Below are positions 1 to 14,689 of a DNA stretch of 14,701 bases, piece by piece. The notes below the pieces were generated by a model, which saw only the letters and a list, made by a program, of their open reading frames with translations, did no database searches and was not told where the DNA came from. Origin of the DNA: Planctomycetota bacterium (GTDB lineage Bacteria; Planctomycetota; Planctomycetia; Pirellulales; Pirellulaceae); assembly GCA_019347795.1 (NCBI GenBank), contig JAHWKS010000030.1, positions 1 to 14,701 on the forward strand, in the 5' to 3' direction. The stretch's first letter is position 1, and every line of letters starts with the position of its first letter. A program made the translations under genes and the position numbers.

Positions 1-76
1 GCACGTTGGGAAAAAGACGTCCGCCGAGTGGCGTGAGCGAATCAACCGTTACCGAGAACTGCTGGGAGAATCCTGA
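1..76 (+). CDS. 3' end of unknown protein (partial)
   Basis: The frame starting at base 2 is open to a TGA at 74-76 and gives a C-terminus reading HVGKKTSAEWRERIN followed by RYRELLGES. It is charged and helical in character. The TGA overlaps the ATG of the next gene (TGATG), the usual sign of translational coupling, which supports it being a real gene end. Too little is present to assign a function; the start lies outside the window. Confidence 0.55.
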   Translation, partial: HVGKKTSAEWRERINRYRELLGES

Positions 77-399
77 TGACGTCCGACGAGAAATTGCAGG
101 AGTTATTGTTTGCCGTCTTTGACGAACTTCGGGAAGGCGTCCGAGAGCAATCGTCGGCCGAGGAATACCATCGTATGAAAGAGGACTTCGCGTTTCATCT
201 AACCGATTGGCGCGATGACCTTCAACAGATAAGGGACCTCCTTAAACGGCCGGACGATTGGTCGGCGGATGACGCCGCTCGCTTTCTCGTCGGCTTCCTC
301 TATCACGTCGTTCCCCATTTGACCGCAGCGCGTGATCTGCTGCTGGATGCGCCGGCATCCGCATCGCCGGAGAAGGGAAAGAAGGTCCGAACTCGATAA
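76..399 (+). CDS. hypothetical protein, 107 aa
   Basis: The ATG at 76-78 overlaps the stop of the upstream gene, so the two are probably cotranscribed and coupled. The product is acidic and largely helical (MTSDEKLQELLFAVFDELRE start), with no signal peptide or clear membrane span. A hydrophobic patch near residues 72-82 (FLVGFLYHVVPHL) is too short and polar to be a convincing transmembrane segment, and the tail is basic (KGKKVRTR). I do not recognise a family. The gene is convergent with the MscS gene, with only about 11 bases between the two stops and no clear terminator there. Confidence 0.6.
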   Translation: MTSDEKLQELLFAVFDELREGVREQSSAEEYHRMKEDFAFHLTDWRDDLQQIRDLLKRPDDWSADDAARFLVGFLYHVVPHLTAARDLLLDAPASASPEKGKKVRTR

Positions 400-410
400 A
401 AAGGGATTCC

Positions 411-2441
411 TTACCGGTCCGCTCTGGCGTACGGGCGGCGGGCGTCGGGCGCCTCGCGATGGTAGACCGTGCGATGCGGGAAGGGGATTTCGATCCCCAG
501 CTCGTCAAACCTGTTCTTGATCCGCCGGTTCAGCTCGCGGCGAACCGGGAATTGCTCCAGCGGCCGGGTCTTGATGAAGAACTTGATCACCACGGCCGAG
601 TCGCCGAAGGCGTCCACGCCCAGCATCTCTAAGTCGTCCAGGATCAGCGGTCCGAATTTCGGGTCATCCCGAATCTCCCGCCCGAGCTGCGTCAGCACCT
701 CCATGACCTGATCGACATCCTCTTTGTACGCGACGCCGACCTCGAACAGCGCCCGCGACCAGCCGTGGGTCAGGTTCGTGACGGTCTTGATTTGTCCGTG
801 CGGCACAAAGTGCACCACGCCGTCCAGGTCGCGGAGGACGGTCATCCGCAGCGTGACGCGCTCCACGGATCCGACCACGTCGCCGATCTTCACGATGTCG
901 TCAATCCGATATTGGTTCTCCAGCAGCATCACGAAGCCGAAGAAGTAGTCGCGGATCAAGTCCTGCGCCCCCAGCCCGACCGCGATGCCCACCACGGCCA
1001 GCGAGGCGATCAGCGGGGCGATCCAGTCGGGATTGATTTCCGCCACCACCAACAGCACGGCGCCGACGGCGGCCACCATCGTCGCCGCGTTGCTGAACAC
1101 GCTGGCCAGCGTCTTGGCGCGGTTCTCGCGCTCCTGCCGGCGGCCGCGGTCTGCGCGAATGCGAAGCTGAAAGATTCGCTTGCTGCCGATGCGAATCAGA
1201 TACTCGAGGACGATAAACCCGAGGAGGATCACCAGCAGCCGCACGCCGTGTTGCTTGAGCCATTCGACCGCCTCGATTCCCAGCGACTTGAACCAGGTGA
1301 CGTTCGCCTCGCGCTCCATTCGCCGGACGTCGCTTTGGGCCTGCGCCAACTGGGCCGCCAGGGCTTCGCGGCGCGACTGCGCGCGCTGGAGGGCGGCTTG
1401 CGATTGGTCCACTTCCAGTTGCGCCGCTCGGTAAGCCGCTTCGGCCTCGGCGATCTGCTGCGTCAATTCCGCCAGGTCGGCGGGATCTTCCTGGGCGACG
1501 CGCTGCCGGTATTCCTCGGTCAGTTCGGCTAATCGCCGCCGCGCGTTTTGCGCCATCTGGCGCCGCGTCTCCAGCAGCCGCTGCTCGTGCTCGATCAGTT
1601 CGTCGAGGTCGTCCAGCCGGGCTTGGGTCCTTTGGATGTCGGACGCCGCTTCGGCGAGCGTCTGCCGTGTCGCCTCCGCTTCCTCCCGGGCCTTCTGGAC
1701 GGTCTGGCTGACGGGAGGCGTCACGCTCTTCGGCGCCTCGCTAGTCGGCGATGGATCCGCTCCGGGCGCCGCGTCTCGGGAAAGAAAAGGCCAGGGGAAA
1801 GCGCCGGGCGGATCAGCGGGGGACGGCCCGCCCGGCGCCGTCTCCGCGGCCGGCGATTCCTCCGGCGCCGGTTCTTCCTCTCGCGGCGCGGGCGGGGCTT
1901 CTCCCTTCAGCCGGGCAAGCTCGACCTGGTCGCCGGCCAGCTTCCTCTCGAGAAGAGCGATTTGCTCCTGCAACGCGCTCCGCTCCTCCAGCGCCAGTTG
2001 AAAACGATCCTCAGCCGCCTTCCAAGCGCCCTCGAAATCGGCGCTCGCTTCCGCCGCTCGCTTCGCCTCTTCCGGCTGCTTCGCGGGATCGAGCGCCTCC
2101 AGCTCCTGTGTCAATTCTTTGTGTCGTTCGTCGAGCCGGCGAAATTCCGCCTCCGCCGTCTCGAACTCGCCGCGCGATTCGCTTAGCTGCGACTTCAGTT
2201 GCTCGAGGCGATCTTCATCCAGATCGATCTCGCGGCTCAACTCCGCAATTCGCCCCGCGTCCGAGCGGCTGGCCGGCGCTGCCTCGCCGGCAGGAGTTGG
2301 TTCCTCCGTCGAATCCGGGACGGCGTCCGAAGCGTTCTGCGCGGCAACGCCCGTCCGGGGCGCGAGGTGAAGGGCCAGCGCGGCAGCCAGAAGGAGATGA
2401 ATCGTTGTTATCGCGGCGGGAGCTCTCGCGATGAAATTCAT
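411..2441 (-). CDS. MscS-family mechanosensitive channel with periplasmic coiled-coil domain
   Basis: The 676-aa product begins with a hydrophobic signal-like segment (residues about 1-34). Two long Glu/Gln/Ala/Arg-rich coiled-coil stretches follow (about 60-180 and 245-380), separated by a Pro/Ala-rich linker. Hydrophobic segments at about 397-413, 448-467 and 471-495 form the membrane part. The last runs into the MscS hallmark, a glycine/alanine-rich pore helix (SLAVVGIAVGLGAQDLI) and the beta domain (YRIDDIVKIGDVVGSVERV, then VPHGQI). Known members open under membrane tension to release solutes in hypo-osmotic shock. The long N-terminal coiled coil recalls MscK/YnaI-type large MscS proteins and probably lies in the periplasm. 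The ATG at 2439-2441 is chosen because it directly precedes the signal segment. The gene stands alone on the minus strand. Confidence 0.9.
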   Translation of the reverse strand: MNFIARAPAAITTIHLLLAAALALHLAPRTGVAAQNASDAVPDSTEEPTPAGEAAPASRSDAGRIAELSREIDLDEDRLEQLKSQLSESRGEFETAEAEFRRLDERHKELTQELEALDPAKQPEEAKRAAEASADFEGAWKAAEDRFQLALEERSALQEQIALLERKLAGDQVELARLKGEAPPAPREEEPAPEESPAAETAPGGPSPADPPGAFPWPFLSRDAAPGADPSPTSEAPKSVTPPVSQTVQKAREEAEATRQTLAEAASDIQRTQARLDDLDELIEHEQRLLETRRQMAQNARRRLAELTEEYRQRVAQEDPADLAELTQQIAEAEAAYRAAQLEVDQSQAALQRAQSRREALAAQLAQAQSDVRRMEREANVTWFKSLGIEAVEWLKQHGVRLLVILLGFIVLEYLIRIGSKRIFQLRIRADRGRRQERENRAKTLASVFSNAATMVAAVGAVLLVVAEINPDWIAPLIASLAVVGIAVGLGAQDLIRDYFFGFVMLLENQYRIDDIVKIGDVVGSVERVTLRMTVLRDLDGVVHFVPHGQIKTVTNLTHGWSRALFEVGVAYKEDVDQVMEVLTQLGREIRDDPKFGPLILDDLEMLGVDAFGDSAVVIKFFIKTRPLEQFPVRRELNRRIKNRFDELGIEIPFPHRTVYHREAPDARRPYARADR

Positions 2442-2502
2442 TCCATCACTTTAGCAGATTTCTGAGGTCCTGACTCGCCTTGGGGCTTCGTCATGCCACG
2501 TT

Positions 2503-2521
2503 GCCCGGCAAGAGGCCGGGC
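2503..2521. other. perfect 7-bp inverted repeat, possible terminator-like hairpin
   Basis: GCCCGGC (2503-2509) and GCCGGGC (2515-2521) flank the loop AAGAG. On the plus strand it is followed by TTACTTCTTCTT, pyrimidine-rich but not a clean U-tract. It lies between the start of the minus-strand MscS gene and the plus-strand promoter of the next operon, so it is not an obvious terminator for either. It could be a dispersed palindromic repeat or a barrier element. Confidence 0.35.
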
Positions 2522-2539
2522 TTACTTCTTCTTGGCGCC

Positions 2540-2567
2540 TTGTATTTCCCGCGCGTCGGCCTAGAAT
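2540..2567 (+). promoter_or_regulatory. candidate sigma-70-type promoter for leader RNA A and the signalling operon
   Basis: TTGTAT (2540-2545) and TAGAAT (2562-2567) are separated by 16 bases. The conserved RNA element starts about 45-65 bases after the -10. The promoter before the second element set (10796-10823) has the same spacing and a similar -35 flank (TTGTNTTTTCC or TTGTNTTTCCC), which raises confidence in both. Transcription would begin near 2574. Prediction from sequence only. Confidence 0.45.
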
Positions 2568-2610
2568 CAAGGGATGGAGGAAGTCGGCGCCATACCGTTT
2601 CTTCCCCAAA

Positions 2611-2717
2611 ATCGTCGGGTGACTAAATCAAGGGCAAGCCGGCCTCGCCGGATGGCCCGTTAGCGAGTAAGCCGACGTGATCGAACGCTCTTGGTGTTCG
2701 GCCACGTCGGCTTTTTT
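2611..2717 (+). promoter_or_regulatory. structured leader RNA, copy A (riboswitch-like attenuator) before the PP2C gene
   Basis: The 5' segment is CGTCGG (2613-2618). The core hairpin has GGGC (2632-2635) pairing with GCCC (2655-2658) around an inner CCGGC/GCCGG stem (2639-2643 and 2647-2651, loop CTC). The conserved stretch GTTAGCGAGTAAG follows. A long terminator hairpin closes the element: AGCCGACGTG (2670-2679) with CACGTCGGCT (2703-2712), an upper stem CGAACGC/GTGTTCG, and a six-T run to 2717. CGTCGG can pair over 6 bp with CCGACG (2672-2677), the 5' arm of the terminator, so two exclusive folds are possible. The Shine-Dalgarno of the PP2C gene starts 15 bases after the T-run. Two further copies occur at 10874-10979 and 10994-11098. 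It shares a GGGCAA string with c-di-GMP-I aptamers but lacks their conserved GCAAAGCC and tetraloop-receptor parts, so I do not assign it to a known class. Confidence 0.7.
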
Positions 2718-2747
2718 CGTCTCAATGGCGCAAGGATTTGTAACGAT

Positions 2748-3659
2748 ATGAGCAAGCCTCTAGACGCATCGGACGGGACCGCCGTGAACCGGCAAGACGC
2801 GGACACAGTGACACTACCGGATGCTCACCCGGCGCTATCGGTGGTCAGCTTTGGCATTACCGACGGCGGCAAAGTCCGCGCCGTCAACGAGGACCAATTT
2901 CTGATCGCGGTGCTGCTTAAAGCCTTGCAGGTCCAGCAGACGAGTCTCCCGCAGCCGACGGTGCAGCGCAGCAGCGACCGGAGCTATCTTTTCGTCGTGG
3001 CTGATGGCATTGGCGGCCATGCCGGAGGGGAACAGGCCAGCGCCCTGGCCATCGACTCCGTCGAATCGTTCATCCTGGGGACCTTTAAATGGTTCGCGCA
3101 CTTCAAGGGGCCGGAGCAAGACCAGGTGCTGGCTGACTTTCAGAGCGCTCTGAGCGAGGCCCATGACCGTATCCGGGCCGAGGCGGTGGAACATCCGGAA
3201 CTGCACGGCATGGGGACCACCCTGACGTTGGCCTACAGCCTGAATGACGTGCTGTTTGTGGCCCACGTCGGCGACAGCCGCTGCTACTTGTGCCGCCGAG
3301 GAAACCTCTACCGGCTGACCCGCGACCACACCCTCGTGGAAGATATGGTCCGCCGCGGTGAGTTGTCGGCCGATGAGGCGATTCGGCACCGCTGGCGCCA
3401 CATTATCACCAACTCCGTCGGGGGCAATTCGGCCCAGATCGAGGTCCAGGTGCACAAAATTCGCCTGGAAGTCGCCGACCGGATGCTGCTCTGCTCCGAT
3501 GGGCTGACCGAAATGGTGTCCGAGGAGGAAATCAAACAGATTCTTCACGCGGAAGCCGAACCCGAGCAGGCATGCCGGCGACTCGTGAAGCGGGCCAACG
3601 TTTCGGGCGGCCGGGACAATATCACCGCCGTGGTCGCCCATTTCCGCCGCGCCGATTGA
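2748..3659 (+). CDS. PP2C-family Ser/Thr protein phosphatase (PrpC/Stp type)
   Basis: The 303-aa soluble product carries the full set of PPM/PP2C motifs in order: VRAVNED (metal-binding D49), VVADGIGGHAGGE (D86), GMGTTLT, VAHVGDSRCYL, LTRDHTLVEDMV, ITNSVGG, LLCSDGLTEMV (D251) and GGRDNITAVV (D290). Members dephosphorylate Ser/Thr-phosphorylated proteins with Mn2+/Mg2+ and usually oppose Hanks-type kinases; no such kinase is in this window. Residues 1-30 precede the catalytic domain and look disordered. The ATG at 2748 is chosen because AAGGA lies 11 bases upstream and because earlier starts fall inside the leader hairpin. It is the first gene of the operon behind leader RNA A; the hybrid kinase follows within about 60 bases. 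Confidence 0.92.
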   Translation: MSKPLDASDGTAVNRQDADTVTLPDAHPALSVVSFGITDGGKVRAVNEDQFLIAVLLKALQVQQTSLPQPTVQRSSDRSYLFVVADGIGGHAGGEQASALAIDSVESFILGTFKWFAHFKGPEQDQVLADFQSALSEAHDRIRAEAVEHPELHGMGTTLTLAYSLNDVLFVAHVGDSRCYLCRRGNLYRLTRDHTLVEDMVRRGELSADEAIRHRWRHIITNSVGGNSAQIEVQVHKIRLEVADRMLLCSDGLTEMVSEEEIKQILHAEAEPEQACRRLVKRANVSGGRDNITAVVAHFRRAD

Positions 3660-3716
3660 CGTCCGACACTCGAGACCGAAATGAAGAATCGCGATCCAAA
3701 TAAGAGGATGCCGGTG

Positions 3717-6368
3717 ATGAACCAAGAACCGCTGGTGGACGATATTCAGAACTACGCCCTCAACATCGTGGACACGGTGCGCGAGCCCCTGTTGATTCTG
3801 AACGCCACCTTGCGCGTGCAATCCGCCAATCGGGCTTTCTATCAAACCTTTCACGTCACTCCCGAAGAAACCGAGAACCGCCTGATTTACGAGTTGGGCA
3901 ACGGCCAGTGGGACATCCCCGCCCTGCGAACCCTGCTCGAAGACGTGGTCCCCCAAAGCTCCGTCTTCAATGATTTCGAGCTGGAGCATACTTTTCCCGT
4001 GATCGGCCGCCGGGTGATGCTGCTCAACGCCCGCAAGCTCCAGGCGGGGCGCCACGGCGAGCTGCTGGTCCTGGCCATGGAAGACGTGACCGCGCGGAAG
4101 CAGGCGGAAGAAGCGCTGGTCGAAGCGGGGGCGTTGCAAAGCGCGATCTTCAACAGCGCCAATTTCTCCAGCATCGCCACCGACGATAAGGGCGTCATTC
4201 AAATCTTCAACGTCGGCGCCGAGCGGATGCTGGGCTATGCGGCCGCCGAAGTGATGAACAAGATTACCCCGGCCGACATTTCCGATCCGCAGGAAGTGAT
4301 TGCCCGCGCCAAGGCGTTGAGCGCCGAGTTGGGAACCGCGATCACGCCCGGCTTTGAGGCCTTGATTTTCAAGGCCGCGCGCGGGATCGAAGACATCTAC
4401 GAGCTGACGTATATCCGCAAGGACGGCAGCCGTTTCCCGGCCGTCGTCTCGGTCACCGCGCTCCGCAACCCGCAGGGGGGAATCATCGGTTATCTGTTGA
4501 TCGGCACCGATAACACCGCCCGCAAGCAAGTCGAGGCCGAGCGAATGCTGCTCGATCAGCGCGTGCGAGATCAACAGTTTTACACCCGCTCGCTGATTGA
4601 ATCGAACATCGACGCCCTGATCACCACCGATCCCCGCGGAATCATTACCGACGTGAACAAGCAGATGGAGGCGCTCACCGGATGCACGCGCGACGAGCTG
4701 ATCGGCGCGCCGTTCAAGGACTACTTCACCGACCCGGAGCGGGCCGGGGCCGGCATCAAGCTGGTGCTGGGCGAAGGTAAAGTCACCGACTACGAGCTTA
4801 CCGCGCGGGCCCGGGACGGCAAGGAAACCGTGGTGTCGTACAACGCGACCACCTTTCACGACCGCGAGCGGAAGCTGCAGGGCGTGTTCGCCGCCGCCCG
4901 CGACGTGACCGAACGCAAACGCTACGAGCAATCGTTGCAGCAGGCCAACCGCGCCAAGAGCGTCTTTCTGGCCAACATGTCGCACGAAATCCGCACTCCC
5001 ATGAACGCCATCCTGGGATTCTCCCAATTGATGCTTCGCGACCAGGACCTCACGCCCCGCCAGTGCCAGTACCTGGGGACCATCAACCGCAGCGGCGAGC
5101 ATCTCCTGGCCCTGATCAACGACATCCTGGAGATGTCCAAGATCGAAGCGGGCCGCACAACGTTGAATCTCTCCACGTTCGACTTGCCGCTCTTGCTCAA
5201 AGACCTGGAGATGATGTTCCGCGTGCGCACCGATGAGAAGAAGTTGTCGTTCTCGGTGGACATCATCGGCGATGTGCCGCAATACATCGTGACCGACATC
5301 AACAAGCTGCGCCAGGTCTTCATTAACGTGCTTGGCAACGCCGTCAAGTTCACCGACGAGGGAGGCATCGGCCTGCGCGTGCGCGCCGACCGCGACGGCG
5401 CGGAGGGGCCTTTTCTCCGGGTCGAAATCGAGGACACCGGCCCCGGCATTTCGCCCGACGAGCAAGAAAAATTGTTCCGGCATTTCGAGCAAACCAAGAC
5501 CGGGCAACAAACCGGGACCGGCACCGGGCTGGGGTTGGCCATCAGCCGCGAGTTCGTTCGCCTGATGGGCGGCTCCATAACGGTCAGCAGCCAGTTGGGC
5601 CAAGGCAGCGTGTTCGCCCTGCACCTGCCTTTGAAGGAGGGGGAAGCCCAGGCGGTTCAAGCGAAAGATGCGCCCCGCCACGTTCTGCGCCTCCAGCCCG
5701 GCCAGGCGACGTGCCGGGTGCTGATTGCCGACGACATCGAGGACAACCGCCGGCTCCTGGCGGAGCTTCTCGGCCCGGTGGGGTTTGAAATTCGGGTGGC
5801 GACCAACGGCGCGGAAGGCGTCCAGGCGTTTGAGGAGTGGCGGCCCCATCTGATCCTGATGGACTTCCGCATGCCGGTGATGGACGGCCACGAGGCGATC
5901 CGCCGAATCCGGGACATGCCCGGGGGGAAGGATCCCAAGATTATTGCGGTGACCGCCAGTGCGATGGACGAAAACCGCGCGGAGTTGATGGAGATCGGCG
6001 CCGACGACTTTATCGGCAAGCCGTTCCGGGAAGCCGAGCTATTCCAGAAGATTCACGCCCACGTGGGAGTAGAATACGTTTACGCCGAGCATCCCCCGGA
6101 CGCGGTCCCGGAGACCGCGGCCGAGTTGACCGCCGAGTCCCTCGCGAATTGGCCGCCCGAGCTCATCGATCCCCTGCGTGAAGCCGTCCTCACGGCGGAC
6201 CTGGACGAGTTGCTGGCGAAGATCCAGGAGATTGAATCCCGCGATCCCCGCATTGCTCAAGCGCTGCGGCGCCTGGCCGAAGGCTTCCAATACCAGAAAC
6301 TTCTCGATTTATTCGGCCCGGGGGAATCTTCGGTAAGTTCGTTAAACCTTGTCGGGAGCCGTCCATGA
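3717..6368 (+). CDS. soluble hybrid histidine kinase: PAS-PAS-PAS-HisKA-HATPase-REC
   Basis: The 883-aa product has no membrane segment, so it senses an internal signal. Order: three PAS-like domains (about 10-125, 135-260, 285-405); HisKA with FLANMSHEIRTPMNA and phospho-acceptor H423; HATPase_c with N box NKLRQVFINVLGNAVKF, G1 EDTGPGI and G2 GTGTGLGLAI; and a receiver (about 668-785) with D672/D673, phospho-acceptor D716 in LILMDFRMPVMDG, and K768. The tail (about 800-883) is helical like an HPt domain but has no histidine in its helices, so it is unlikely to relay phosphate. An ATG at 3681 is in frame, but GAGGA (3704-3708) sits 8 bases before ATG 3717, so 3717 is preferred; the longer form adds 12 residues. 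The stop overlaps the next gene's ATG (ATGA), implying coupled expression with the response regulator. Confidence 0.92.
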   Translation: MNQEPLVDDIQNYALNIVDTVREPLLILNATLRVQSANRAFYQTFHVTPEETENRLIYELGNGQWDIPALRTLLEDVVPQSSVFNDFELEHTFPVIGRRVMLLNARKLQAGRHGELLVLAMEDVTARKQAEEALVEAGALQSAIFNSANFSSIATDDKGVIQIFNVGAERMLGYAAAEVMNKITPADISDPQEVIARAKALSAELGTAITPGFEALIFKAARGIEDIYELTYIRKDGSRFPAVVSVTALRNPQGGIIGYLLIGTDNTARKQVEAERMLLDQRVRDQQFYTRSLIESNIDALITTDPRGIITDVNKQMEALTGCTRDELIGAPFKDYFTDPERAGAGIKLVLGEGKVTDYELTARARDGKETVVSYNATTFHDRERKLQGVFAAARDVTERKRYEQSLQQANRAKSVFLANMSHEIRTPMNAILGFSQLMLRDQDLTPRQCQYLGTINRSGEHLLALINDILEMSKIEAGRTTLNLSTFDLPLLLKDLEMMFRVRTDEKKLSFSVDIIGDVPQYIVTDINKLRQVFINVLGNAVKFTDEGGIGLRVRADRDGAEGPFLRVEIEDTGPGISPDEQEKLFRHFEQTKTGQQTGTGTGLGLAISREFVRLMGGSITVSSQLGQGSVFALHLPLKEGEAQAVQAKDAPRHVLRLQPGQATCRVLIADDIEDNRRLLAELLGPVGFEIRVATNGAEGVQAFEEWRPHLILMDFRMPVMDGHEAIRRIRDMPGGKDPKIIAVTASAMDENRAELMEIGADDFIGKPFREAELFQKIHAHVGVEYVYAEHPPDAVPETAAELTAESLANWPPELIDPLREAVLTADLDELLAKIQEIESRDPRIAQALRRLAEGFQYQKLLDLFGPGESSVSSLNLVGSRP

Positions 6369-7555
6369 ATCCGGAGCAACATAACAGCGATGCCGCCCAA
6401 CCCGCCAGCATCTTGGTCGTGGACGACACCGCCGCCAATCTCCAGGTGCTGGCCGGCATGCTCAAGGAGCGCGGGTACAAGGTCCGTCCCGTTCTCAGCG
6501 GCAAGCTGGCGCTGCTGGCCGCCGAGCGCGATCCCCCGGACCTGATCCTGCTGGACATCAACATGCCGGAGATGAACGGTTACGAGGTGTGCCAGCGCCT
6601 CAAAGCCGACGACGCCCTCGCGGGGATTCCGGTCATCTTCATCAGCGCTCTCACCGAGCAATTGGACAAGGTGAAGGCCTTTGCCATCGGCGGGGTCGAT
6701 TACCTCACCAAGCCGTTTCAAATGGAGGAACTGCAAGCCCGCGTCGAAACCCACCTCAAGCTCCGCCGCCTGCAAATCGAACTGGAGGAATACAGCCAAA
6801 GCTTGGAAGCGGCGCGCGAGCGGCTTGCGCTCGACCTGGAGTTGGCCCGCCAGGTGCAACGAGGACTGCTGCCGCTGCGGCTGCCCGAAATCCCGGGCTA
6901 CGAGTTTTTCGCCCACTACGAGTCGGCCCACGAGGTGGGGGGCGATTATTACGACTTCATCCTGCTGCCGCGACAGCGCGTGGCCGTCTTGTTGGGGGAC
7001 GTCTGCGGCAAGGGAGTGGTGGCGGCTCTTCTCATGGCCAAACTCAGCGCCGACGCCAGGTTCTGCATGCTGACGGAGCCCGACCCCGCAGCCGCCGTCA
7101 CGAGGCTCAACTCGCTGATGTGCCAGTCGGGGAACGATCGTTTTGTAACTCTGGCGGCCGCCGTCCTCGATCCGGTCAACCACACCGTGACGCTGGTCAA
7201 CGCCGGCCATCCCCCTCCGCTGATCTATCACCGGGCCACGCGCACGGTGGAAGAGGCGATCGGCGACGCGATGGCCGGCACGCCCCTGTGAATCCTCGAC
7301 GATTTCGAGTACGAGTCGTGCCAGGTCTCTCTCGAGCCGGGCGACAGCATCCTGGCGTTCACCGACGGCGTGACGGAGGCCATGGACGTCCACGACCGCC
7401 AACTCGAGACGAAAGGGGTGTATGACGCCGTGCAAGGGGAGGCCTACTCTCCCAGCGGTCTGGTGGAGCAAGTGGTCAAGGCCGTCGAGAAATTCGCCGC
7501 GGGCCGGAGCCAGAGCGATGATATCGCCGTGGTGGGCTTCGGGAGGACGGGCTAG
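6365..7555 (+). pseudogene. REC-SpoIIE/RsbU-type phosphatase response regulator, interrupted by in-frame TGA
   Basis: The N-terminal receiver (residues about 15-130) has VVDDTAANL, phospho-acceptor D64 in LLDINMPEMNG, and YLTKPF. A linker helix leads to a PPM phosphatase of the SpoIIE/RsbU type: GGDYYDF (D194), LGDVCGKG (D212) and NAGHPPPLI. After MAGTPL the frame meets TGA at 7289-7291 (codon 309), then continues uninterrupted for 88 codons with the rest of the domain: LAFTDGVTEA (D334) and QSDDIAVVGFG (D385/D386), ending at 7555. Homologues usually have Gly after PL, and GGA to TGA is a single change. The 308-aa product lacks the two late metal-binding motifs and should be inactive unless the TGA is read through or is a sequencing error. 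Family members act in partner switching, dephosphorylating an anti-anti-sigma protein. The ATGA overlap with the kinase makes it the probable partner of that kinase. Confidence 0.8.
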
Positions 7556-7563
7556 GCGGGTCG

Positions 7564-8508
7564 ATGCAGCGCATCTTCGTAATCGGATCATTGCTTAAGG
7601 AGGCGGCTCGAGGCTGGAGCGAGCATCGGGCGCAGAGCCTGGGCGCCGCCTTGGCCTTCTACGCGACTTTGGCGATCGCGCCGCTGACAATCATTGCCTT
7701 TGCCGTAGCCGGCTATGTCTTCGGGGAAGAGGCGGCTCGCGGCGGCATCGTGGACCAGATTGAAAACTGGGTGGGACGGGACGGGGCGGTTGCCATCGAG
7801 ACCTCGGTCCACAAGGCCGACACGCCTCGTCAAAGCTGGATTGCAGCGACGCTCAGCATCGCTCTCTTGTTGTTCGCCGCCACGGGCGTCTTCGTCGAAC
7901 TCAAGGACTCGCTGGACAGAATCTGGGAAGTGAAGCCCAAGCCCGGTCTCGGGCTGTGGACGATGCTCAAGACCCGACTGTTGTCGTTCGTGGTCGTGCT
8001 GGGGACGGGCGCCTTGCTCCTGGCGTCGCTGCTCTTGACCGCCGCGCTGACGGCCTTCACCCACTGGCTCGACCAATGGCTGCCGGTAACGGTCTGGACG
8101 GCCTATCTCTTGGACGTGCTGGTCTCGTTCCTCGTCAGCACGATCTTGTTCGCACTGGTTTTCAAGCTGCTCCCTGACGTGAACGTGAAGTGGAGCGGCG
8201 TGTGGATCGGCGCCGTCGCGACGGCGGTCTTGTTCATGCTCGGCAAGTTCCTGTTCGGCGTCTACATCGGCAGCGCGGGCGTCCGTTCGATCTATGGCGC
8301 GGCGTCGTCGCTGGTGATCGTCCTGGTTTGGCCTTATTACTCGTCGCAGATCCTCTTCTTCGGCGCGGAACTGATCCGGGCCTATGCCCAGCGTTTCGAT
8401 CCGGACCCCATCGTCCCCACCGAGCAGGCCGTGCTCATGACCGAGGCGGAGATTGCCAGGCAGGGCCTGCCCAGCCCGCCGGACCTGGATCGGCCCGCCT
8501 CGAGCTAA
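7564..8508 (+). CDS. YihY/BrkB-family inner-membrane protein
   Basis: The 314-aa polytopic protein shows about six hydrophobic segments. It has the YihY/virulence factor BrkB signatures: an N-terminal LGAALAFYATLAIAPL segment, ELKDSLDRIWEV, and a C-terminal part reading IYGAASSLVIVLVWPYYSS followed by QILFFGAELIRAYAQRF. The biochemical role of the family is not settled; the old ribonuclease BN assignment was withdrawn. The C-terminal 45 residues are hydrophilic. The ATG lies 8 bases after the end of the broken phosphatase frame, so it belongs to the signalling operon. Read as the last gene, because a minus-strand gene converges on it. Confidence 0.88.
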   Translation: MQRIFVIGSLLKEAARGWSEHRAQSLGAALAFYATLAIAPLTIIAFAVAGYVFGEEAARGGIVDQIENWVGRDGAVAIETSVHKADTPRQSWIAATLSIALLLFAATGVFVELKDSLDRIWEVKPKPGLGLWTMLKTRLLSFVVVLGTGALLLASLLLTAALTAFTHWLDQWLPVTVWTAYLLDVLVSFLVSTILFALVFKLLPDVNVKWSGVWIGAVATAVLFMLGKFLFGVYIGSAGVRSIYGAASSLVIVLVWPYYSSQILFFGAELIRAYAQRFDPDPIVPTEQAVLMTEAEIARQGLPSPPDLDRPASS

Positions 8509-8515
8509 GGGAAAC

Positions 8516-8543
8516 AAAAAACGCCCTCAACAGAGTGAGGGCG
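8516..8543 (-). terminator. intrinsic terminator for the minus-strand secreted-protein gene
   Basis: CGCCCTCA (8522-8529) and TGAGGGCG (8536-8543) form a perfect 8-bp stem with a 6-base loop. On the minus strand the stem is followed by a run of six T (8516-8521). It lies 30 bases beyond the stop of the gene at 8573-8995. On the plus strand no U-tract follows, although the hairpin also lies just after the YihY stop. Confidence 0.75.
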
Positions 8544-8572
8544 CGCGAGCTGATTTCGAGCTGGCGGTCAGG

Positions 8573-8995
8573 TTACCAGCCAATCGAAAACGACGAGTAA
8601 CCGCGAAACGGCGACGAATAGGAACTGTACGGCCGACCCCACGCCGAATAGCCTCCGGAGTACGTCGGGCTACGGTAGTAACTGCCGTACGGAGCGCTGT
8701 AATAGCGCGTCGAGGGCGAGCCATAACCGATCGAGGGGCCATACGACTGGTGCGGCGATGCATAGGAGCCGTAAGGCGAACGGTAAGCATGGTACTGCGA
8801 GTACGGATTCGTCTGACGATGGTGCTGGCGGTGCTCCAGTTGATCGTGGTATTGGCGGTGCTCCAGTTGATCGTGGTACTGCTGATGACTGGAATGACCG
8901 CCGGACCGCGGTCCGTGATAATTTTGGCCGTGGGCTGCGGCGCCGCTCAAGGCGGTCAAGCCGGCGATGCCTAACGTGGCGATTAGAATTCTCAT
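8573..8995 (-). CDS. secreted Tyr/Ser/Gly/His-rich low-complexity protein, 140 aa
   Basis: An N-terminal signal peptide (MRILIATLGIAGLTALSGA, cleavage near AHG-QN) leads into a His/Gln/Tyr-rich section with two exact copies of YHDQLEHRQ (about residues 40-57). A long tail of Tyr/Ser/Gly/Pro repeats such as SPYGSYASP and APYGSYYRSP follows. There are no cysteines and no recognisable domain. AAGGA lies about 9 bases before the ATG, and a strong terminator follows the stop, so it is a single-gene unit. Similar short Tyr-rich exported proteins occur in Planctomycetota; a cell-surface, metal-binding or cross-linking role is only a guess. Confidence 0.75.
   Translation of the reverse strand: MRILIATLGIAGLTALSGAAAHGQNYHGPRSGGHSSHQQYHDQLEHRQYHDQLEHRQHHRQTNPYSQYHAYRSPYGSYASPHQSYGPSIGYGSPSTRYYSAPYGSYYRSPTYSGGYSAWGRPYSSYSSPFRGYSSFSIGW
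8826..8879. repeat. 27-bp direct tandem repeat, two copies, inside the secreted-protein gene
   Basis: Two adjacent 27-base units (8826-8852 and 8853-8879) differ only at the last base (T or C) and keep the reading frame, duplicating nine residues (YHDQLEHRQ and its rotations). This is a recent in-frame duplication that could vary in copy number between strains. Confidence 0.85.
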
Positions 8996-9250
8996 GACGC
9001 GGTCCTTTTATGGTGTGCGTTAGTTGTCGGTTGGAGTCGTGCGATTGTGTCGGGACAAAAGCCCTCCATCACCTTAACCGCAAACCATGTACCGCAGCCG
9101 ACACGAGGGCGCGGATTCAAAGATTGCCTGTCGAAACGATGCATGCCGAAGAATTGCTGCGTCGCTCGCTCTTCTGGGGTCTGATTCGGCTCGGACTGGT
9201 CCTGCCAAATTGGTCGAGTACCAGGACTTTGGGACGCGCGAGGCCTCGGC

Positions 9251-10207
9251 TCAAGACTTGCGGCGTTTCTTCGCCTGCGATTCTTTCGTCGGCAAACGCA
9301 CGTTCCAGGCGAGGCGCAGGGCGGCGAGGGCGCGGATCACCCAATAGCTCATGTCGATCTGCCACCACCGCAGGCCGTGCCGGGCCGAGGTGGGAAAGGC
9401 GTGGTGGGTGTTGTGCCATCCCTCTCCCATGGCGAGATAGCCAAACACCCAGTTGTTTCGGCTTTGGTCGTCGCTTTGGTAGGGCCGGCGTCCCCATAGA
9501 TGACAGGCCGAGTTGATGCTCCAGGTGACGTGGTGGACCAGGAAGATCCGCACCAGTCCGCCCCAGATGAGACCCGTCCAAACGCCCGTCCAGGTTCCCG
9601 TCAGTAGACCGCCGAGAACCGCCGGAATTACTAAGCCCAGAGCGACCCACACCGGAAACAAGGCGCTCGTCACGCGCAAGACGGCGCTCTTGCGGAGGTC
9701 CTGGACGTACCGAGACAGGTCCTCGGGGTCAGGTTGAAATATCCAGCCAATATGGGCGTGCCACGCACCGCGCAGCAGGCCCCGAATGCCTGGACCGCGC
9801 CGGTAGGGCGAGTGGGGGTCCTCCAACGTGTCGCTGTGCTGGTGATGCCGGCGGTGCGTCGCGACCCATTTCAGCAGCGGTCCCTGGACCGCCATCGACC
9901 CGAGGACCGCTAAGATGAACTTCACCACGATGTACGTCTCGAAAGACCGATGGGTGAACAGCCGGTGGAACCCGACCGTGATCCCCAAGGCGGACAGAGC
10001 GTACATGACCAGCAGCAGCCCCAAGTCGGTCCAATGGAAGCCCCGGCCCCAAAGGAAAAACGGGACGGCCGCCGCCCCAAGGAAGGGGACGATAATGGCG
10101 GTGAAATTCGCCAGGCGCACGCCCAGCGCCACGCGCCCCGTCTCGGGTTCGCGGGGCGGCAATTCGCCGAGCGGGTCGGCGATGGGCAACGGGACCAGTT
10201 CTGCCAT
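9251..10207 (-). CDS. acyl-CoA/acyl-lipid delta-9-type fatty acid desaturase
   Basis: The 318-aa membrane di-iron desaturase has the three histidine boxes of the family: HRLFTH (81-86), HRRHH (118-122) and HNTHH (265-269). Hydrophobic segments lie at about 30-55, 60-80, 92-108 and 195-235. Members introduce a cis double bond into saturated acyl chains using O2 and an electron donor, adjusting membrane fluidity. The C-terminus is lysine/arginine-rich (AKKRRKS). The ATG at 10205-10207 (MAELVPLP) is chosen because the in-frame extension to 10303 adds a non-family, cysteine-containing leader; neither start has a clear Shine-Dalgarno. The DUF2294 gene upstream on the same strand ends 110 bases away, so the two may be cotranscribed. 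Confidence 0.9.
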   Translation of the reverse strand: MAELVPLPIADPLGELPPREPETGRVALGVRLANFTAIIVPFLGAAAVPFFLWGRGFHWTDLGLLLVMYALSALGITVGFHRLFTHRSFETYIVVKFILAVLGSMAVQGPLLKWVATHRRHHQHSDTLEDPHSPYRRGPGIRGLLRGAWHAHIGWIFQPDPEDLSRYVQDLRKSAVLRVTSALFPVWVALGLVIPAVLGGLLTGTWTGVWTGLIWGGLVRIFLVHHVTWSINSACHLWGRRPYQSDDQSRNNWVFGYLAMGEGWHNTHHAFPTSARHGLRWWQIDMSYWVIRALAALRLAWNVRLPTKESQAKKRRKS

Positions 10208-10317
10208 CAAAAGAATCCGAGCTCGCGCTGCCGTGTAGTTGTCGCAGCCTCTCCCAGGGCCGCAATTCCTCGTACCGGTGGCCATCAGCACTTTTCGGGC
10301 CAACTAGTGCCGCGGGC

Positions 10318-10701
10318 CTATTTCTTCTTGGCGTTTGGCCGAAAGGACGGCGGATCGGCCAGAGTGAATAGCACCACCTCTTCGCCCGTGACGGTGCTGA
10401 TATCGTGGTGCAGGCTCAGCGGTTTGACGCCCGCGGCCTCTTGGACCATCTTCTCCAGGACCGGCCGGGCCGTTTCGACCAGTTGGGTCCGAACTTGCTT
10501 GAGCAGGTCCCGCCCCTTTTCGGGCGTAAGGGTCGTTACCAGGTGCTGCTCGGCCGCCGTGAGCACGCCTTGGAGTCGGACGACCAGCAGATCGCCGATC
10601 AGATAGGCGTGGATGTCTTTCGGCCCGCGGCCCATGTAATCCTGCTCGAAGCGCGTGACGCCGTCGCAGATGGCAGCTTCGATCTCGCCTTGTGTTTTCA
10701 T
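10318..10701 (-). CDS. DUF2294-family protein, 127 aa
   Basis: The product begins MKTQGEIEAAICDGVTRFEQ and carries the family pattern DYMGRGPKDIHAYLIGDLLV, VRLQGVLTAAEQHL, GRDLLKQVRTQLVETARP, AGVKPLSLHHDIST and VVLFTLADPP. DUF2294 proteins are small soluble alpha/beta proteins of unknown biochemical role. The internal ATG at 10699-10701 is preferred over the longer frame to 10770 because the extra 23 residues do not fit the family start. The C-terminus is basic (NAKKK). A second member of the same family lies at 11588-12013 in the divergent operon. It may lead a two-gene unit with the desaturase. Confidence 0.85.
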   Translation of the reverse strand: MKTQGEIEAAICDGVTRFEQDYMGRGPKDIHAYLIGDLLVVRLQGVLTAAEQHLVTTLTPEKGRDLLKQVRTQLVETARPVLEKMVQEAAGVKPLSLHHDISTVTGEEVVLFTLADPPSFRPNAKKK

Positions 10702-10795
10702 TTCAAAGACGCTCGCGCGTGGGACGGCCCGCCCGTCCGTCTCAGAGGTTATCAAGAAGTATCGTACCAAATGCGGAGTTGAAAGAATTGATCCC

Positions 10796-10823
10796 TTGTC
10801 TTTTCCCTCGCCGCCCCTATAAT
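10796..10823 (+). promoter_or_regulatory. candidate sigma-70-type promoter for leader RNAs B and C and the stress operon
   Basis: TTGTCT (10796-10801) and a perfect TATAAT (10818-10823) are separated by 16 bases. Transcription would start near 10830, about 45 bases before the conserved TCGG of RNA copy B. The same arrangement is seen before copy A at 2540-2567. The first coding start on this transcript is at 11170, leaving a leader of about 340 bases that carries two RNA elements. Confidence 0.55.
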
Positions 10824-10873
10824 ATCGGTGTTGCGGGAGTGGATGCGGTGAACTCCCCTCGACTCCCCCAACC

Positions 10874-10979
10874 CATCGGATGACTGTCTAAAGGGCAAGC
10901 CGGCCTCGCCGGAAGGCCCATTAACGAGTAAGCCGACGTGGTCGAACCCTTCGGGTGTTCGGCAACGTCGTTTTTTTTT
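10874..10979 (+). promoter_or_regulatory. structured leader RNA, copy B (tandem with copy C)
   Basis: It has the same layout as copy A. TCGG (10876-10879) is followed by TGACTGTCTAAAGGGCAA, the inner hairpin CCGGC-CTC-GCCGG (10900-10912) enclosed by GGGC/GCCC (10893-10896 and 10916-10919), and TTAACGAGTAAGCCGACG. The terminator hairpin pairs CGACGT (10934-10939) with ACGTCG (10965-10970). Its upper stem CGAAC/GTTCG is capped by CC-TTCG-GG, an ideal UUCG tetraloop, and nine T follow (10971-10979). TCGG can pair with CCGA (10933-10936) as an alternative to the terminator. The upper stem differs in sequence from copy A but keeps pairing. Confidence 0.7.
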
Positions 10980-10993
10980 GCTCCGGTGGAGAT

Positions 10994-11098
10994 TTTCGGA
11001 AACTAGCTAAAGGGCAACCCGGCCGCGCCGGGAGGCCCGTTAACGAGTAGCCGACGCAGCGGATCGCCTTACGGCGTTCTGTCGCGTCGGCTTTTTTT
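10994..11098 (+). promoter_or_regulatory. structured leader RNA, copy C (tandem with copy B), before the DUF3309 gene
   Basis: TCGG (10996-10999) is followed by CTAAAGGGCAA, GGGC/GCCC (11012-11015 and 11035-11038) around an extended inner stem CCCGGC/GCCGGG (11018-11032, loop CGC), then TTAACGAGTAGCCGACG. The terminator pairs AGCCGACGC (11049-11057) with GCGTCGGCT (11084-11092) and ends in seven T (to 11098). The T-to-C change in the 5' arm relative to copy A is matched by A-to-G in the 3' arm, a compensatory change. The upper stem has different bases but is again paired (CGCC-TTAC-GGCG). The start codon of the first operon gene lies about 70 bases further on. Confidence 0.7.
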
Positions 11099-11169
11099 AT
11101 TGGCGGCGGACATGCGATGAGCGCGCCCGCCGAAAACGAACCGAACGGCCCCTTTTAAGGAGAACGGCA

Positions 11170-11331
11170 ATGTCGACGCTCGGCATCATTCTGATTGTGA
11201 TCCTGGTTCTGCTGCTCTTGGGCGTGCTGCCCGCGTGGCCGCACAGCCGGAGTTGGGGAGCTTTCCCCAGCGGCGCCCTGGGATTGGTGTTGATCATCGT
11301 CGTCGTTCTTTTGGTCCTGGGTCGCATCTGA
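11170..11331 (+). CDS. DUF3309-family small membrane protein, 53 aa
   Basis: The product has two hydrophobic helices, MSTLGIILIVILVLLLLGVL and a C-terminal stretch GLVLIIVVVLLVLGRI, separated by PAWPHSRSWGAFPSGA. This is the typical size and central Trp/Pro/Ser pattern of DUF3309. AAGGAG lies 7 bases before the ATG, a strong site that fixes the start. The function of the family is unknown; members often sit among stress-response genes. It is the first gene behind the tandem leader RNAs B and C. Confidence 0.85.
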   Translation: MSTLGIILIVILVLLLLGVLPAWPHSRSWGAFPSGALGLVLIIVVVLLVLGRI

Positions 11332-11366
11332 TGGCGCCATGGGGATCGCCGTTGTGAAAGACAGCC

Positions 11367-11528
11367 ATGAACAATCTACTTCTCGTCTTGATCGCGATCC
11401 TGCTGCCGCCGCTGGCGGTCGGCCTCAAGGCCGGCCTCGGCGGACAACTGATCCTGAACATTATTTTGACGTTGATCGTCTACTTGCCCGGCCTGCTCCA
11501 TGCGTTGTGGGTCGTGCTGAAAGATTGA
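11367..11528 (+). CDS. YqaE/Pmp3-family membrane protein, 53 aa
   Basis: This small two-helix membrane protein has the family pattern: ILLPPLAVGLKAGLGGQ with the PP pair after the first helix, then LILNIILTLIVYLPGLLHAL and WVVLKD. Pmp3/YqaE proteins (UPF0057) are induced by salt and membrane stress, and loss of yeast Pmp3 alters membrane potential and cation tolerance. The ATG at 11367 lacks a strong Shine-Dalgarno (only GAAAG upstream). It starts 35 bases after the DUF3309 stop, so the pair is probably cotranscribed. Confidence 0.88.
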   Translation: MNNLLLVLIAILLPPLAVGLKAGLGGQLILNIILTLIVYLPGLLHALWVVLKD

Positions 11529-11587
11529 TCGAAATTCCCACCTCCGTGCAGGGCGAGTGTTCTGTGCGCCACGCCGAGGCTCAAGCC

Positions 11588-12013
11588 ATGAACCACATCC
11601 TTCCCACCGTCGCCCAACAGATCGCCCAAGCCGCGATCGCGTTTCAACAGCAGAGAACCGGCCATGCGCCCACGGGGGTGACCGTGGTGCTCAGCGCCGA
11701 CACGTTGGTTGTCACGCTGCACGACGCCCTGACGCCGGCCGAAAAGGTCCTGGCGGCGAACCCGGAAGGGGCGGCGCAGGTGCAGGAGTTTCACCGCCAG
11801 TTGTTCGCCAATTCCTGCGAACTGCTGCGACACGAGATCGGCAACATCACCGGGGTCAAAGTGCGCGAAGCAGCCGCGGAAGTCGAGACGAGATCCGGAA
11901 CGGTTTTCCACGCCTTCACGAGCGGCGCCATGGTGCAGGTCTTCCTGCTCGCCGGCGACGTGCCGGCGGACGCCTGGCGCGGGGATGGAATGAACAAGGC
12001 GCTTCAACCGTGA
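11588..12013 (+). CDS. DUF2294-family protein (second copy), 141 aa
   Basis: MNHILPTVAQQIAQAAIAFQ starts the product, followed by family features: TGHAPTGVTVVLSADTLVVT, LHDALTPAEKVLA, EFHRQLFANSCELLRHEIGN, TGVKVREAAAEVET and MVQVFLLAGDVP. It aligns by eye with the 10318-10701 protein in order and spacing (GVLTAAE/DALTPAE, AGVK/TGVK), but conserved RGP and HHDIST elements are altered, so it is a diverged paralogue. The ATG at 11588 is preferred; the frame is open further upstream but there overlaps the Pmp3 gene. The Shine-Dalgarno is weak. Role unknown. Confidence 0.75.
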   Translation: MNHILPTVAQQIAQAAIAFQQQRTGHAPTGVTVVLSADTLVVTLHDALTPAEKVLAANPEGAAQVQEFHRQLFANSCELLRHEIGNITGVKVREAAAEVETRSGTVFHAFTSGAMVQVFLLAGDVPADAWRGDGMNKALQP

Positions 12014-12084
12014 ACGTGCCTTGGCGCCGGGAGGCGCCACAACCCTGACCACGATTCAAAGACCACTATTCCAAGGAACCACAG

Positions 12085-12366
12085 ATGAGAACGCAAACTC
12101 CACTTACCGAAGCTGCCCGGCAGTACGAGGCGGCTTACGCAGCGCACTATTCAGAACGCGACTTATCCTTGGCGTTCCGGCTTTACAAGGAGCTCCTGGC
12201 GTCGCACCCGGGCGAGCCGGAAGCCGGTTTCTCCCGGATGCAGCTCCAAAACATCGTCAACACGATCGTTCCCAAGCAGGATCGCTTGGATGCTCAGTTG
12301 CAACTGGCGTCTGCCCGGCTTGGGCGCCCGGACGCGGCGCCGGCCCCGATCGCATTGGTTTCGTAA
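12085..12366 (+). CDS. hypothetical protein, 93 aa, helical
   Basis: AAGGA lies 7 bases upstream of the ATG and the gene sits in register within the stress operon. The product is soluble and helical: EAARQYEAAYAAHYSERDLS, LAFRLYKELLASHPGEPEA, then FSRMQLQNIVNTIVPKQDR. The YKELLASHPGEPEA segment resembles a single TPR-like helix pair, but one unit is not enough for a family call. It directly precedes the SPFH gene (62-base gap), suggesting a partner or accessory role. Confidence 0.65.
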   Translation: MRTQTPLTEAARQYEAAYAAHYSERDLSLAFRLYKELLASHPGEPEAGFSRMQLQNIVNTIVPKQDRLDAQLQLASARLGRPDAAPAPIALVS

Positions 12367-12428
12367 TTCCGGACTCCGCCGGCCACCGGCCCGCGGCGTT
12401 CCCTCCTTATTTTCCAGAGATATCGACC

Positions 12429-13445
12429 ATGTTCGAACAACTACTCGTCTTCGCCGCACTAGCGGCGGGGCTCCTGGCGCTCGTGACGCTGGCGCTCACG
12501 TTCTTCACGGTGGAGCAACGCACGGCGGCCATCGTGCAGCGGCTTGGCAAATTCGTCCGCGAGGCGGGGCCGGGCCTCAACGTGAAGGTCCCCTTCATCG
12601 ACCGCGTGGTGGGGCGCACGAACCTGCGGGTCCAGCAATTGGACGTCAAGATCGAGACCAAGACGGAGGACAACGTCTTCGTCCAGTTGGTCGTCGCCGT
12701 CCAGTTCTACGTCCTGCCGGAGAAGGTCTACGACGCGTTCTACAAGCTCGACGACGCACGCCGGCAGATCACGTCGTACGTCTTCGACGTGGTGCGAGCC
12801 CAAGTGCCCAAAATCAAGCTCGACGACGTGTTCGAGAAGAAGGACGACATCGCCGACATCGTCAAATCCGAACTTGCCCAGGTCATGGAAGGCTTCGGCT
12901 ACGGAATCCTCAAGGCGCTCGTGACCGACATCGATCCGGATCCCAAGGTCAAGCAGTCGATGAACGAGATCAACGCCGCGCAGCGGATGCGGGTCGCGGC
13001 GACCGAGAAGGGGGAAGCCGACCGGATCCTCAAGGTCAAGTCGGCCGAAGGGGACGCCCAGAGCAAAGCCTTGCAGGGCAAGGGCATCGCCGAGCAACGG
13101 AAGGCCATTGTCGAAGGCCTGCGGGACTCGGTGGACGAGTTCCGGCGGTCCGTGCCGGGCACGACGGCGAAGGACGTGATGAACCTCGTCCTGATGACGC
13201 AGTACTTCGACACGCTCAAGGAGATCGGCGCCTCGTCCCGCACGAATACGATTCTCATTCCGCACTCGCCGGGGAACCTGACCAACCTGACGGACCAAAT
13301 CCGGAACGCCATGGTGGAGGCCAACCAGGTGGGCGCGAGCTCCCAGGCGCCGGCGGAGAACGGCGAAGAGGCGTGGGAAGAACCGTGGAGAAAAGGCCGG
13401 GATGCCGTTCGCCCGGAGCCGCTGGCCGAAGTCGGCGGTGATTGA
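12429..13445 (+). CDS. SPFH/band 7 stomatin-family protein, closest in style to HIR proteins
   Basis: The 338-aa product has an N-terminal membrane segment (about 2-24). The SPFH domain starts at VEQRTAAIVQRLGKFVREAG and contains LRVQQLDVKIETKTEDNVFV, DARRQITSYVFDVVRAQVPK, DDVFEKKDDIADIVKSELAQ and MNEINAAQRMRVAATEKGEA. The later PGTTAKDVMNLVLMTQYFDT followed by LKEIGASS, with an IPHSPGN end, closely matches what I recall of plant hypersensitive-induced-reaction (HIR) proteins. SPFH proteins form large membrane-anchored oligomeric cages in functional membrane microdomains. ATG 12429 is chosen because it begins the membrane segment; the open frame extends upstream over the previous gene without family sequence. 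The last 30 residues are acidic and probably disordered. Confidence 0.9.
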   Translation: MFEQLLVFAALAAGLLALVTLALTFFTVEQRTAAIVQRLGKFVREAGPGLNVKVPFIDRVVGRTNLRVQQLDVKIETKTEDNVFVQLVVAVQFYVLPEKVYDAFYKLDDARRQITSYVFDVVRAQVPKIKLDDVFEKKDDIADIVKSELAQVMEGFGYGILKALVTDIDPDPKVKQSMNEINAAQRMRVAATEKGEADRILKVKSAEGDAQSKALQGKGIAEQRKAIVEGLRDSVDEFRRSVPGTTAKDVMNLVLMTQYFDTLKEIGASSRTNTILIPHSPGNLTNLTDQIRNAMVEANQVGASSQAPAENGEEAWEEPWRKGRDAVRPEPLAEVGGD

Positions 13446-13474
13446 TCGCCGGTGGTTGGGCGCCGCGTTCACGT

Positions 13475-13495
13475 CCCCTCGCGCCGGGCGAGGGG
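13475..13495. other. perfect 8-bp hairpin after the SPFH gene
   Basis: CCCCTCGC (13475-13482) and GCGAGGGG (13488-13495) flank the loop GCCGG. No U-tract follows on either strand, so it is not a standard intrinsic terminator; it may stabilise the 3' end of the SPFH message or be a repetitive palindrome. The 173-base gap (13446-13618) shows no other recognisable feature. Confidence 0.4.
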
Positions 13496-13618
13496 AGCCC
13501 GGCGTTGCTGGAATGCTCTCGAATATTCACGTGTCGGATTGTTGCGTTCAGTGTCGTTGATTGCGGGTCGCGTGGGCGTTTCGCTCATTCCGACCAACCT
13601 CTTTTCAGGAGCTTGACC

Positions 13619-13795
13619 ATGTTACAGCTAGCAGTTGCCTTGCTCGTCGTCGCTTTGATCGCCGCCCTCTTGGGCTTTGGAGGATTTGCCGGCTCCTTGG
13701 TGGGTTTGGCGAAGATTGCCTTCGTCGTGCTCCTCGTGCTGGCCGTGCTGTCCTTGGCGATGGGCGGTTTCAGACGCCGATCTTTCTGGGGTTAA
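13619..13795 (+). CDS. DUF1328/YtjA-family small membrane protein, 58 aa
   Basis: The product has two hydrophobic helices with the DUF1328 (UPF0391) pattern: ALLVVALIAALLGFGGFAGS, LVGLAKIAFVVLLVLAVLSL, and a basic C-terminus (FRRRSFWG). AGGAG lies 7 bases before the ATG, which fixes the start well inside a longer open frame. Function unknown; family members are often induced in stress or stationary phase. A U-rich hairpin follows the stop. Confidence 0.88.
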   Translation: MLQLAVALLVVALIAALLGFGGFAGSLVGLAKIAFVVLLVLAVLSLAMGGFRRRSFWG

Positions 13796-13840: not shown

Positions 13841-13898
13841 GGCGCGGGCAGGCCGCAGTTTGTCGCTTGCCCGCTCACTATGAAAAGGAGACAGTTCA

Positions 13899-14180: not shown

Positions 14181-14223
14181 GCCGCTGCGCCGCCATCAAC
14201 CATTGCACCGCCAAGGAGAGTTT

Positions 14224-14679: not shown

Positions 14680-14689
14680 CAATTTTAAC

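Follow-up and report, generated by a model that had tools for sequence, protein, structure and literature searches.

Imperfect hairpins with internal loops that overlap a transcription terminator are found in the ribonucleic antiterminator (RAT) targets of BglG and LicT, which are about 30 nucleotides (nt) long, and in the ANTAR targets, which consist of a pair of hexaloop hairpins. The RNA element described here, present in three copies (A, B and C) in a 14,701-nt stretch of a Planctomycetota genome of the family Pirellulaceae (assembly GCA_019347795.1, contig JAHWKS010000030.1, positions 1 to 14,701; hereafter the window, meaning this whole stretch), shares that architecture, but its core measures about 65 nt and has no such pair. 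It also resembles the ON-type transcriptional riboswitches with aptamer-terminator overlap, namely the crcB and pfl motifs, in which, as described (PMC2864571), the 3′ part of the fold is common to the terminator stem and more effector leads to more expression; unlike these, it is a single unbranched hairpin, has no match in Rfam and precedes many unrelated stress genes instead of the genes of one pathway. Two other motifs are the nearest by name. The yjbJ motif (WRC-39-1; PMC11109978) is listed as a weak candidate with 40 representatives, all from Streptococcus, in which two hairpins, one of them described as terminator-like, precede a gene that has been likened to the CsbD stress family. The 2010 motif Rhodopirellula-1 is entered, in its line of a table (PMC2864571), as likely cis-regulatory and listed for Planctomycetes, two points of likeness, but also for Proteobacteria, and the table gives it no Rfam accession. 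No description of the RNA family was found in the literature, in which these nearest names were compared by description only; the family is apparently undescribed, which is not fully proven, as it may coincide with Rhodopirellula-1.

The largest family of direct repeats listed for the window consists of the three copies (2603-2717, 10864-10978 and 10983-11097). An earlier note on this DNA had regarded them as a structured leader RNA, and that they are real copies is agreed upon by the repeat listing, by blastn against the own genome, in which they are the sole strong matches (E-values of 2e-58, 2e-27 and 2e-13, the next best being 0.63), by a covariance model, which finds three matches in that genome, as many as there are copies in the window, and by folding against 200 dinucleotide shuffles, each copy being more stable (z of -5.8 for A, -3.5 for B and -5.8 for C). 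The terminator hairpins with 6-9 T that the note had reported are likewise present, with T-runs of 6 (A), 9 (B) and 7 (C), and the compensating changes that it saw in their stems appear in alignment columns 75-84. The string GTTARCGAGTA is not common to all copies as had been stated, since copy B instead has ATTAACGAGTA. Furthermore, the GGGC/GCCC helix stands, but the conserved strings around it, described as unpaired, are in part paired, with ACU/AGU (P1) and UNA/UUN (P1c) flanking the helix. Two features had been missed: the 5′ end of the element, (C)GUCGG, forms the helix P0 with CCGAC(G), a strand that doubles as the terminator's 5′ arm, and sigma70-like promoters lie upstream of A and B.

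The element belongs to a large family. Over 60 genomes, blastn gave matches in 11, the own genome included, with 20 places outside the latter; 17 of these were fetched and, one being dropped as a truncated copy, 16 were joined with A, B and C in the 19-sequence alignment of the covariance model R1. This model matches 77 of 296 genomes drawn from the order of the window, the Pirellulales, 10 of 343 sampled from the phylum (a count that includes the own genome and another member of its family) and 12 of 201 from the order to which genome G425 belongs, with up to nine matches per genome (G087), among which there are possibly antisense shadows. After removal of exact duplicate contexts and of the antisense hits to which the near-palindromic hairpin gives rise, 232 distinct copies were gathered, mostly from Planctomycetota. 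A pattern scan of named genomes (13 of the 81 listed loci, with contigs equal in length to regions already covered, were kept out of the model search) gave, among the matches listed, Pirellulales, Planctomycetaceae, Phycisphaerales, Isosphaeraceae, Schlesneria and others, together with the isolate Bythopirellula polymerisocia Pla144 and one metagenome-assembled genome of the Sumerlaeia (L260, model score of 64.7 bits); one viral contig also has the RNA. In Rfam 15, the window gave no match up to an E-value of 5 except one at chance level (4.9), located elsewhere than the copies, and in 14 related loci searched at gathering thresholds tRNAs alone matched.

The core is one long, irregular, unbranched hairpin in which, from the base, P0 (UCGG/CCGA, with variable outer pairs) is followed by a 3 × 3 loop (ANG/AAG), P1 (ACU/AGU), a second 3 × 3 loop, P1c (UNA/UUN), an A/G step, P2 (GRGC/GCYC), a purine loop and P3, whose apical loop is variable. 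Conservation is strongest at CGGA-GAC in the 5′ half and at GUA-GCCG in the 3′ half; the third pair of P1 passes from U-A to G-C in 26 sequences, and P2 and P3 change repeatedly. In the 19-sequence alignment, two-sided changes occur in 9 of the 22 pairs versus 3.1 in shuffles. A phylogeny-aware test, our own version of the R-scape idea with a home-made null in which substitutions are reassigned along the tree, was applied to sets from which copies with at least eight gaps, a length below 58 nt or near-identity (97%) to others had been removed, and the nine top pairs of 1953 all fall within the structure, both with 138 sequences and with 224. When core and terminator are taken together (108 sequences; the input was the 109 of 227 copies with the T-run exactly 35 nt behind the core), the six top pairs of 5253 are all in one or the other, and two pairs have E < 0.05. 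In addition, columns 25 and 41, one on either side of the P2-P3 loop, swap A-G for G-A, a non-significant exchange that hints at a conserved non-canonical pair.

The overlap with the terminator was surveyed in the 224 copies with enough downstream sequence. A T-run is present in 215 of them, starting at a median of 35 nt behind the core, and 213 have a hairpin with the 3′ strand of P0 inside its 5′ arm; P0 and the terminator are therefore mutually exclusive. Folding was carried out for the 213 copies whose T-run has five or more T, P0 being counted when at least two of its three central pairs form: P0 is predicted in 208 of the bare cores, in 199 of the transcripts that end ten bases short of the T-run and in 5 of the complete leaders, and the terminator in 206 of the latter. 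Copies A and C of the window show this pattern of P0 and then terminator, and B has the weakest terminator. Two divergent copies (L141 and L148, from genomes G123 and G186) lack a T-run and are possibly a form working without termination.

The position of the copies is that of leaders. The downstream gene lies on the same strand in 208 of the 220 copies having any downstream gene call, at a median of 100 nt from the core (12 further copies have no such call, and the calls, made by our own script, are rough), and the upstream neighbour does so in 95 of 217. Of the 229 upstream regions, 59 have a sigma70-like promoter score of 9 or more out of 12, versus 13 of 229 shuffled ones, and the usual distance of these high-scoring promoters from the core is about 60 nt. 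Four pairs of copies form close tandems, with a spacing of 55-65 nt and no gene between (in the window and at L112, L193 and L200). In the tandem of the window, copy C starts 14 nt past the T-run of B, a distance too short to hold a separate promoter; C is thus reachable only via read-through of B, which favours leaders in series over small RNAs. Pairs of copies within 1.2 kb are divergent in 12 cases (L120, 1730-2050, and 11 others, 192-791 nt apart) and convergent in none. The search that the earlier note had proposed, a covariance model scanned over planctomycete genomes, has in this way yielded a family with covarying pairs ahead of same-strand genes, which is neither a known Rfam family nor a covariation-free dispersed repeat outside leaders; its assignment of the copies to a cis-regulatory leader RNA outside the known riboswitch classes, c-di-GMP-I included, is borne out.

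The genes behind the RNA are varied. In the window, copy A is followed by genes for a PP2C phosphatase, a kinase, an RsbU-like phosphatase and a BrkB protein, and the B-C tandem by genes for DUF3309, Pmp3, MpsC and Band 7 proteins. Across the family, 212 first genes comprise 63 in the cluster of MpsC (DUF2294), 7 in that of CsrA and 142 others; a Pfam check of 5 of 96 MpsC-cluster and 5 of 39 CsrA-like members found all of them matching PF10057 or PF02599. Pfam scans, with long proteins cut and tallies covering the 25 commonest families, included 117 of the 142 other first genes (receiver 11, BON 8, histidine kinase 6, CsbD 5, Transgly_assoc 5 and, more rarely, KaiC 3, desaturase 3, ferritin-like 2 and P-type ATPase 2), many of which fall in none of these families, and 148 of the 175 second or third genes (BON 8, receiver 6, glycosyltransferase 6, CsbD 5, DUF1328 4 and, more rarely, DUF3309 3, FloA 3, chaperonin 2, as well as dodecin and glycan enzymes). 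In B. polymerisocia, one copy (L116) stands ahead of genes for acetate kinase, DUF302, P-type ATPase and phosphoketolase. From these families, the RNA would appear to mark a general stress regulon. This apparently unlisted class of switch-like leader RNA across a phylum, linked with genes of stress, membrane, chaperone and energy functions and not with a single pathway, makes two questions testable, namely the general stress control of planctomycetes and the role of the DUF2294/MpsC proteins.

With a conserved covarying fold in 5′ leader position and a core that shares a strand with the expression platform, the RNA would work like an ON-type transcriptional riboswitch or a protein-dependent antiterminator, and by this analogy it is a candidate for the riboswitch kind. 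On the basis of sequence and predicted folding, we consider it probable that every copy acts in cis as an ON-type transcription attenuator. The leader geometry is that of an ON switch, in which a stabilised P0-P1 would prevent termination. Transcription would start at the sigma70-like promoter about 50-60 nt upstream, and the first fold of the RNA would be the conserved irregular hairpin, with P0 and P1 as its closing helices; as the polymerase moves on, the 3′ strand of P0 would become available as the 5′ arm of the terminator, whose T-run lies about 35 nt behind the core. When the effector is absent the terminator would win and the operon would be off, and an effector holding P0-P1 (conserved core GGANGAC / GUAAGCCG) would allow the polymerase to read on into the stress operon; copies in tandem, B-C among them, would act as a two-step gate. 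A small stress-related metabolite or ion is our tentative first choice of effector; a protein, with MpsC-A as the best single candidate, comes next as a possible though less favoured one, and the RNA acting as its own sensor, for instance of temperature or elongation speed, follows as unlikely.

Several observations weigh against this picture. The T-run is absent in 9 of the 224 surveyed copies and two more have it without the shared strand, an opposite-strand gene faces 12 of the 220 copies, and the minimum free energy fold of copy B at T-run+4 retains P0, so that B may be leaky. The pairs that individually reach E < 0.05 in the core test are four with 138 sequences and one with 224, and the alignments had been fitted to the model. 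As for P0, none of its six pairs shows two-sided changes in the 19-sequence alignment, and at the outer U-A position 18 of 138 sequences have A-G or G-G instead, which leaves only CGG/CCG as general; given this weak covariation, the claim of P0 rests mainly on the near-universal CGG/CCG pairing and on strand sharing. Finally, the stress regulon is read from gene families, of which CsbD is found in 13 of 25 RNA-negative genomes as well as in 19 of 25 RNA-positive ones.

Among the proteins, PF10057 occurs in 67 of 77 RNA-positive versus 23 of 219 RNA-negative genomes of the order; in a set of 50 genomes, MpsC is present in 25 of 25 RNA-positive and 3 of 25 RNA-negative ones, tracking the RNA more specifically than CsbD or CsrA, the latter being in all 50. 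A quick tree separates two paralogue groups by a branch of 2.99: MpsC-B (84 rows) lies within four genes behind an RNA in 78 cases and is never divergent, and MpsC-A (100 rows) is divergent from an RNA in 57, behind one in 19, placed otherwise in 21 and both in 3. The divergent upstream neighbour of the RNA is MpsC in 63 of 232 cases. This association and the divergent paralogue make MpsC-A, which is strongly conserved and has a basic tail, the natural candidate for a trans-acting antiterminator that would bind the hairpin, hold P0 and turn on the operons, including that of its paralogue MpsC-B. A phage-like contig on which the RNA and then MpsC-A stand beside terminase, portal and integrase genes fits this specific proposal, which we nevertheless regard as rather unlikely: MpsC was not found in 10 of the 77 RNA-positive genomes, 8 of which have a completeness of 95% or more, and the structure modelled for MpsC-A (predicted local distance difference test, pLDDT, of 91.9) has no significant relative in Foldseek, whose first rows are mostly ribosomal-protein chains (E-values of 0.014 to about 0.2, template modelling score near 0.3) that are not counted as evidence. 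The MpsC of Staphylococcus aureus, placed in the same Pfam family by Pfam name alone, was dispensable for growth, an mpsC deletion having no growth phenotype (PMC6689103). The phage-like contig (L302, IMGVR_UViG_3300032397_001619, 2306-2937), of tailed-phage type, could be a phage copy of the stress switch of the host. A wider scheme, doubtful at present, is that in many Planctomycetota an RNA mechanism governs a general stress regulon, in which promoters would be ordinary, a leader antitermination element would give membership in place of an alternative sigma factor, and DUF2294/MpsC proteins, one of them copied by a phage, would be hitherto unrecognised RNA-linked sensor-regulators. Control of the leader by ANTAR proteins was considered and rejected, as they occur in only 10 of 25 RNA-positive and 5 of 25 RNA-negative genomes.

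GGA is the core of the CsrA site, and CsrA might bind the unpaired GGA of the terminated form (UCGGANGAC) and lock the OFF state, csrA in RNA-led operons providing feedback. The GGA occupies core positions 5-7, where conservation is 95-99%, the operons include 39 CsrA-like genes (20 from family f8 and 19 from outside it; 5 of the 39 were those checked by Pfam), and csrA matches number 3-17 per genome in all 50 genomes. However, CsrA is equally common in RNA-negative genomes, a second strictly conserved GGA was not found, and the 3′ partner is conserved as much as the GGA side, which a single-stranded CsrA site would not need; locking by CsrA is accordingly judged improbable. In 15 RNA-led operons, all of family f8, the gene order is MpsC - CsrA - MpsC.

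The compact unit of about 105 nt, with its conserved stretches and strong closing terminator, might also suggest small regulatory RNAs with terminators of their own instead of leaders, but the same-strand gene that nearly always follows, the missing promoter room ahead of C and the mutual exclusion of P0 and terminator in nearly all copies make this very improbable. A functionless dispersed repeat or mobile element, to which the several copies per genome, often on one contig, and the one on a phage-like contig might point, is hardly credible, being contradicted by pair covariation, the fixed leader position and the sequence divergence among copies within one genome, and blastn with copy B found no match in plasmid or phage records.

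Table 1. Coordinates of the RNA copies, their parts and the neighbouring genes in the window
Feature	Position	Strand	Basis or remark
Copy A, core hairpin (P0-P1-P1c-P2-P3)	2613-2677	+	covariance model match, 80.4 bits
Copy B, core hairpin	10874-10938	+	covariance model match, 79.6 bits
Copy C, core hairpin, in tandem with B	10994-11056	+	covariance model match, 71.2 bits
Copy A, P0 5′ strand CGTCGG	2613-2618	+	pairs with 2672-2677
Copy A, P1 (ACT 2622-2624 / AGT 2666-2668), enclosing P2 and P3	2622-2668	+	
Copy A, P2	2632-2635/2655-2658	+	inside P1
Copy A, P3	2639-2643/2647-2651	+	inside P1
Copy A, terminator (hairpin 2671-2711, T6 2712-2717)	2671-2717	+	5′ arm has CCGACG in common with P0
Copy B, terminator hairpin and T9 (10971-10979)	10934-10979	+	weaker than in A and C
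Copy C, terminator hairpin and T7 (11092-11098)	11050-11098	+	
Copy A, sigma70-like promoter (TTGTAT 2540-2545, 16 nt, TAGAAT 2562-2567)	2540-2567	+	sequence; aligns with B promoter
B/C leader, sigma70-like promoter (TTGTCT 10796-10801, 16 nt, TATAAT 10818-10823)	10796-10823	+	sequence
MscS-like channel with long N-terminal extension	411-2441	-	by eye; divergent from copy A
PP2C phosphatase, first gene behind A	2748-3659	+	Pfam PF00481
PAS - histidine kinase - receiver protein, A operon	3708-6368	+	start from own gene calling
Receiver - SpoIIE (RsbU-like) phosphatase, A operon	6365-7555	+	Pfam for the part ahead of the in-frame TGA 7289-7291
BrkB/YihY-type membrane protein, A operon	7564-8508	+	PF03631
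MpsC-A (DUF2294), divergent from B/C leader, without RNA of its own	10318-10701	-	PF10057, 1.4e-34; tree
DUF3309 small protein, first gene behind B/C	11170-11331	+	PF11752
Pmp3-family proteolipid	11367-11528	+	PF01679
MpsC-B (RNA-led DUF2294 paralogue)	11588-12013	+	PF10057; tree
SPFH/Band 7 protein	12429-13445	+	PF01145

In the A operon, the frame of the receiver-SpoIIE gene stays open to its end past the in-frame TGA and is SpoIIE-like by eye; this TGA is either a real interruption or an assembly error.
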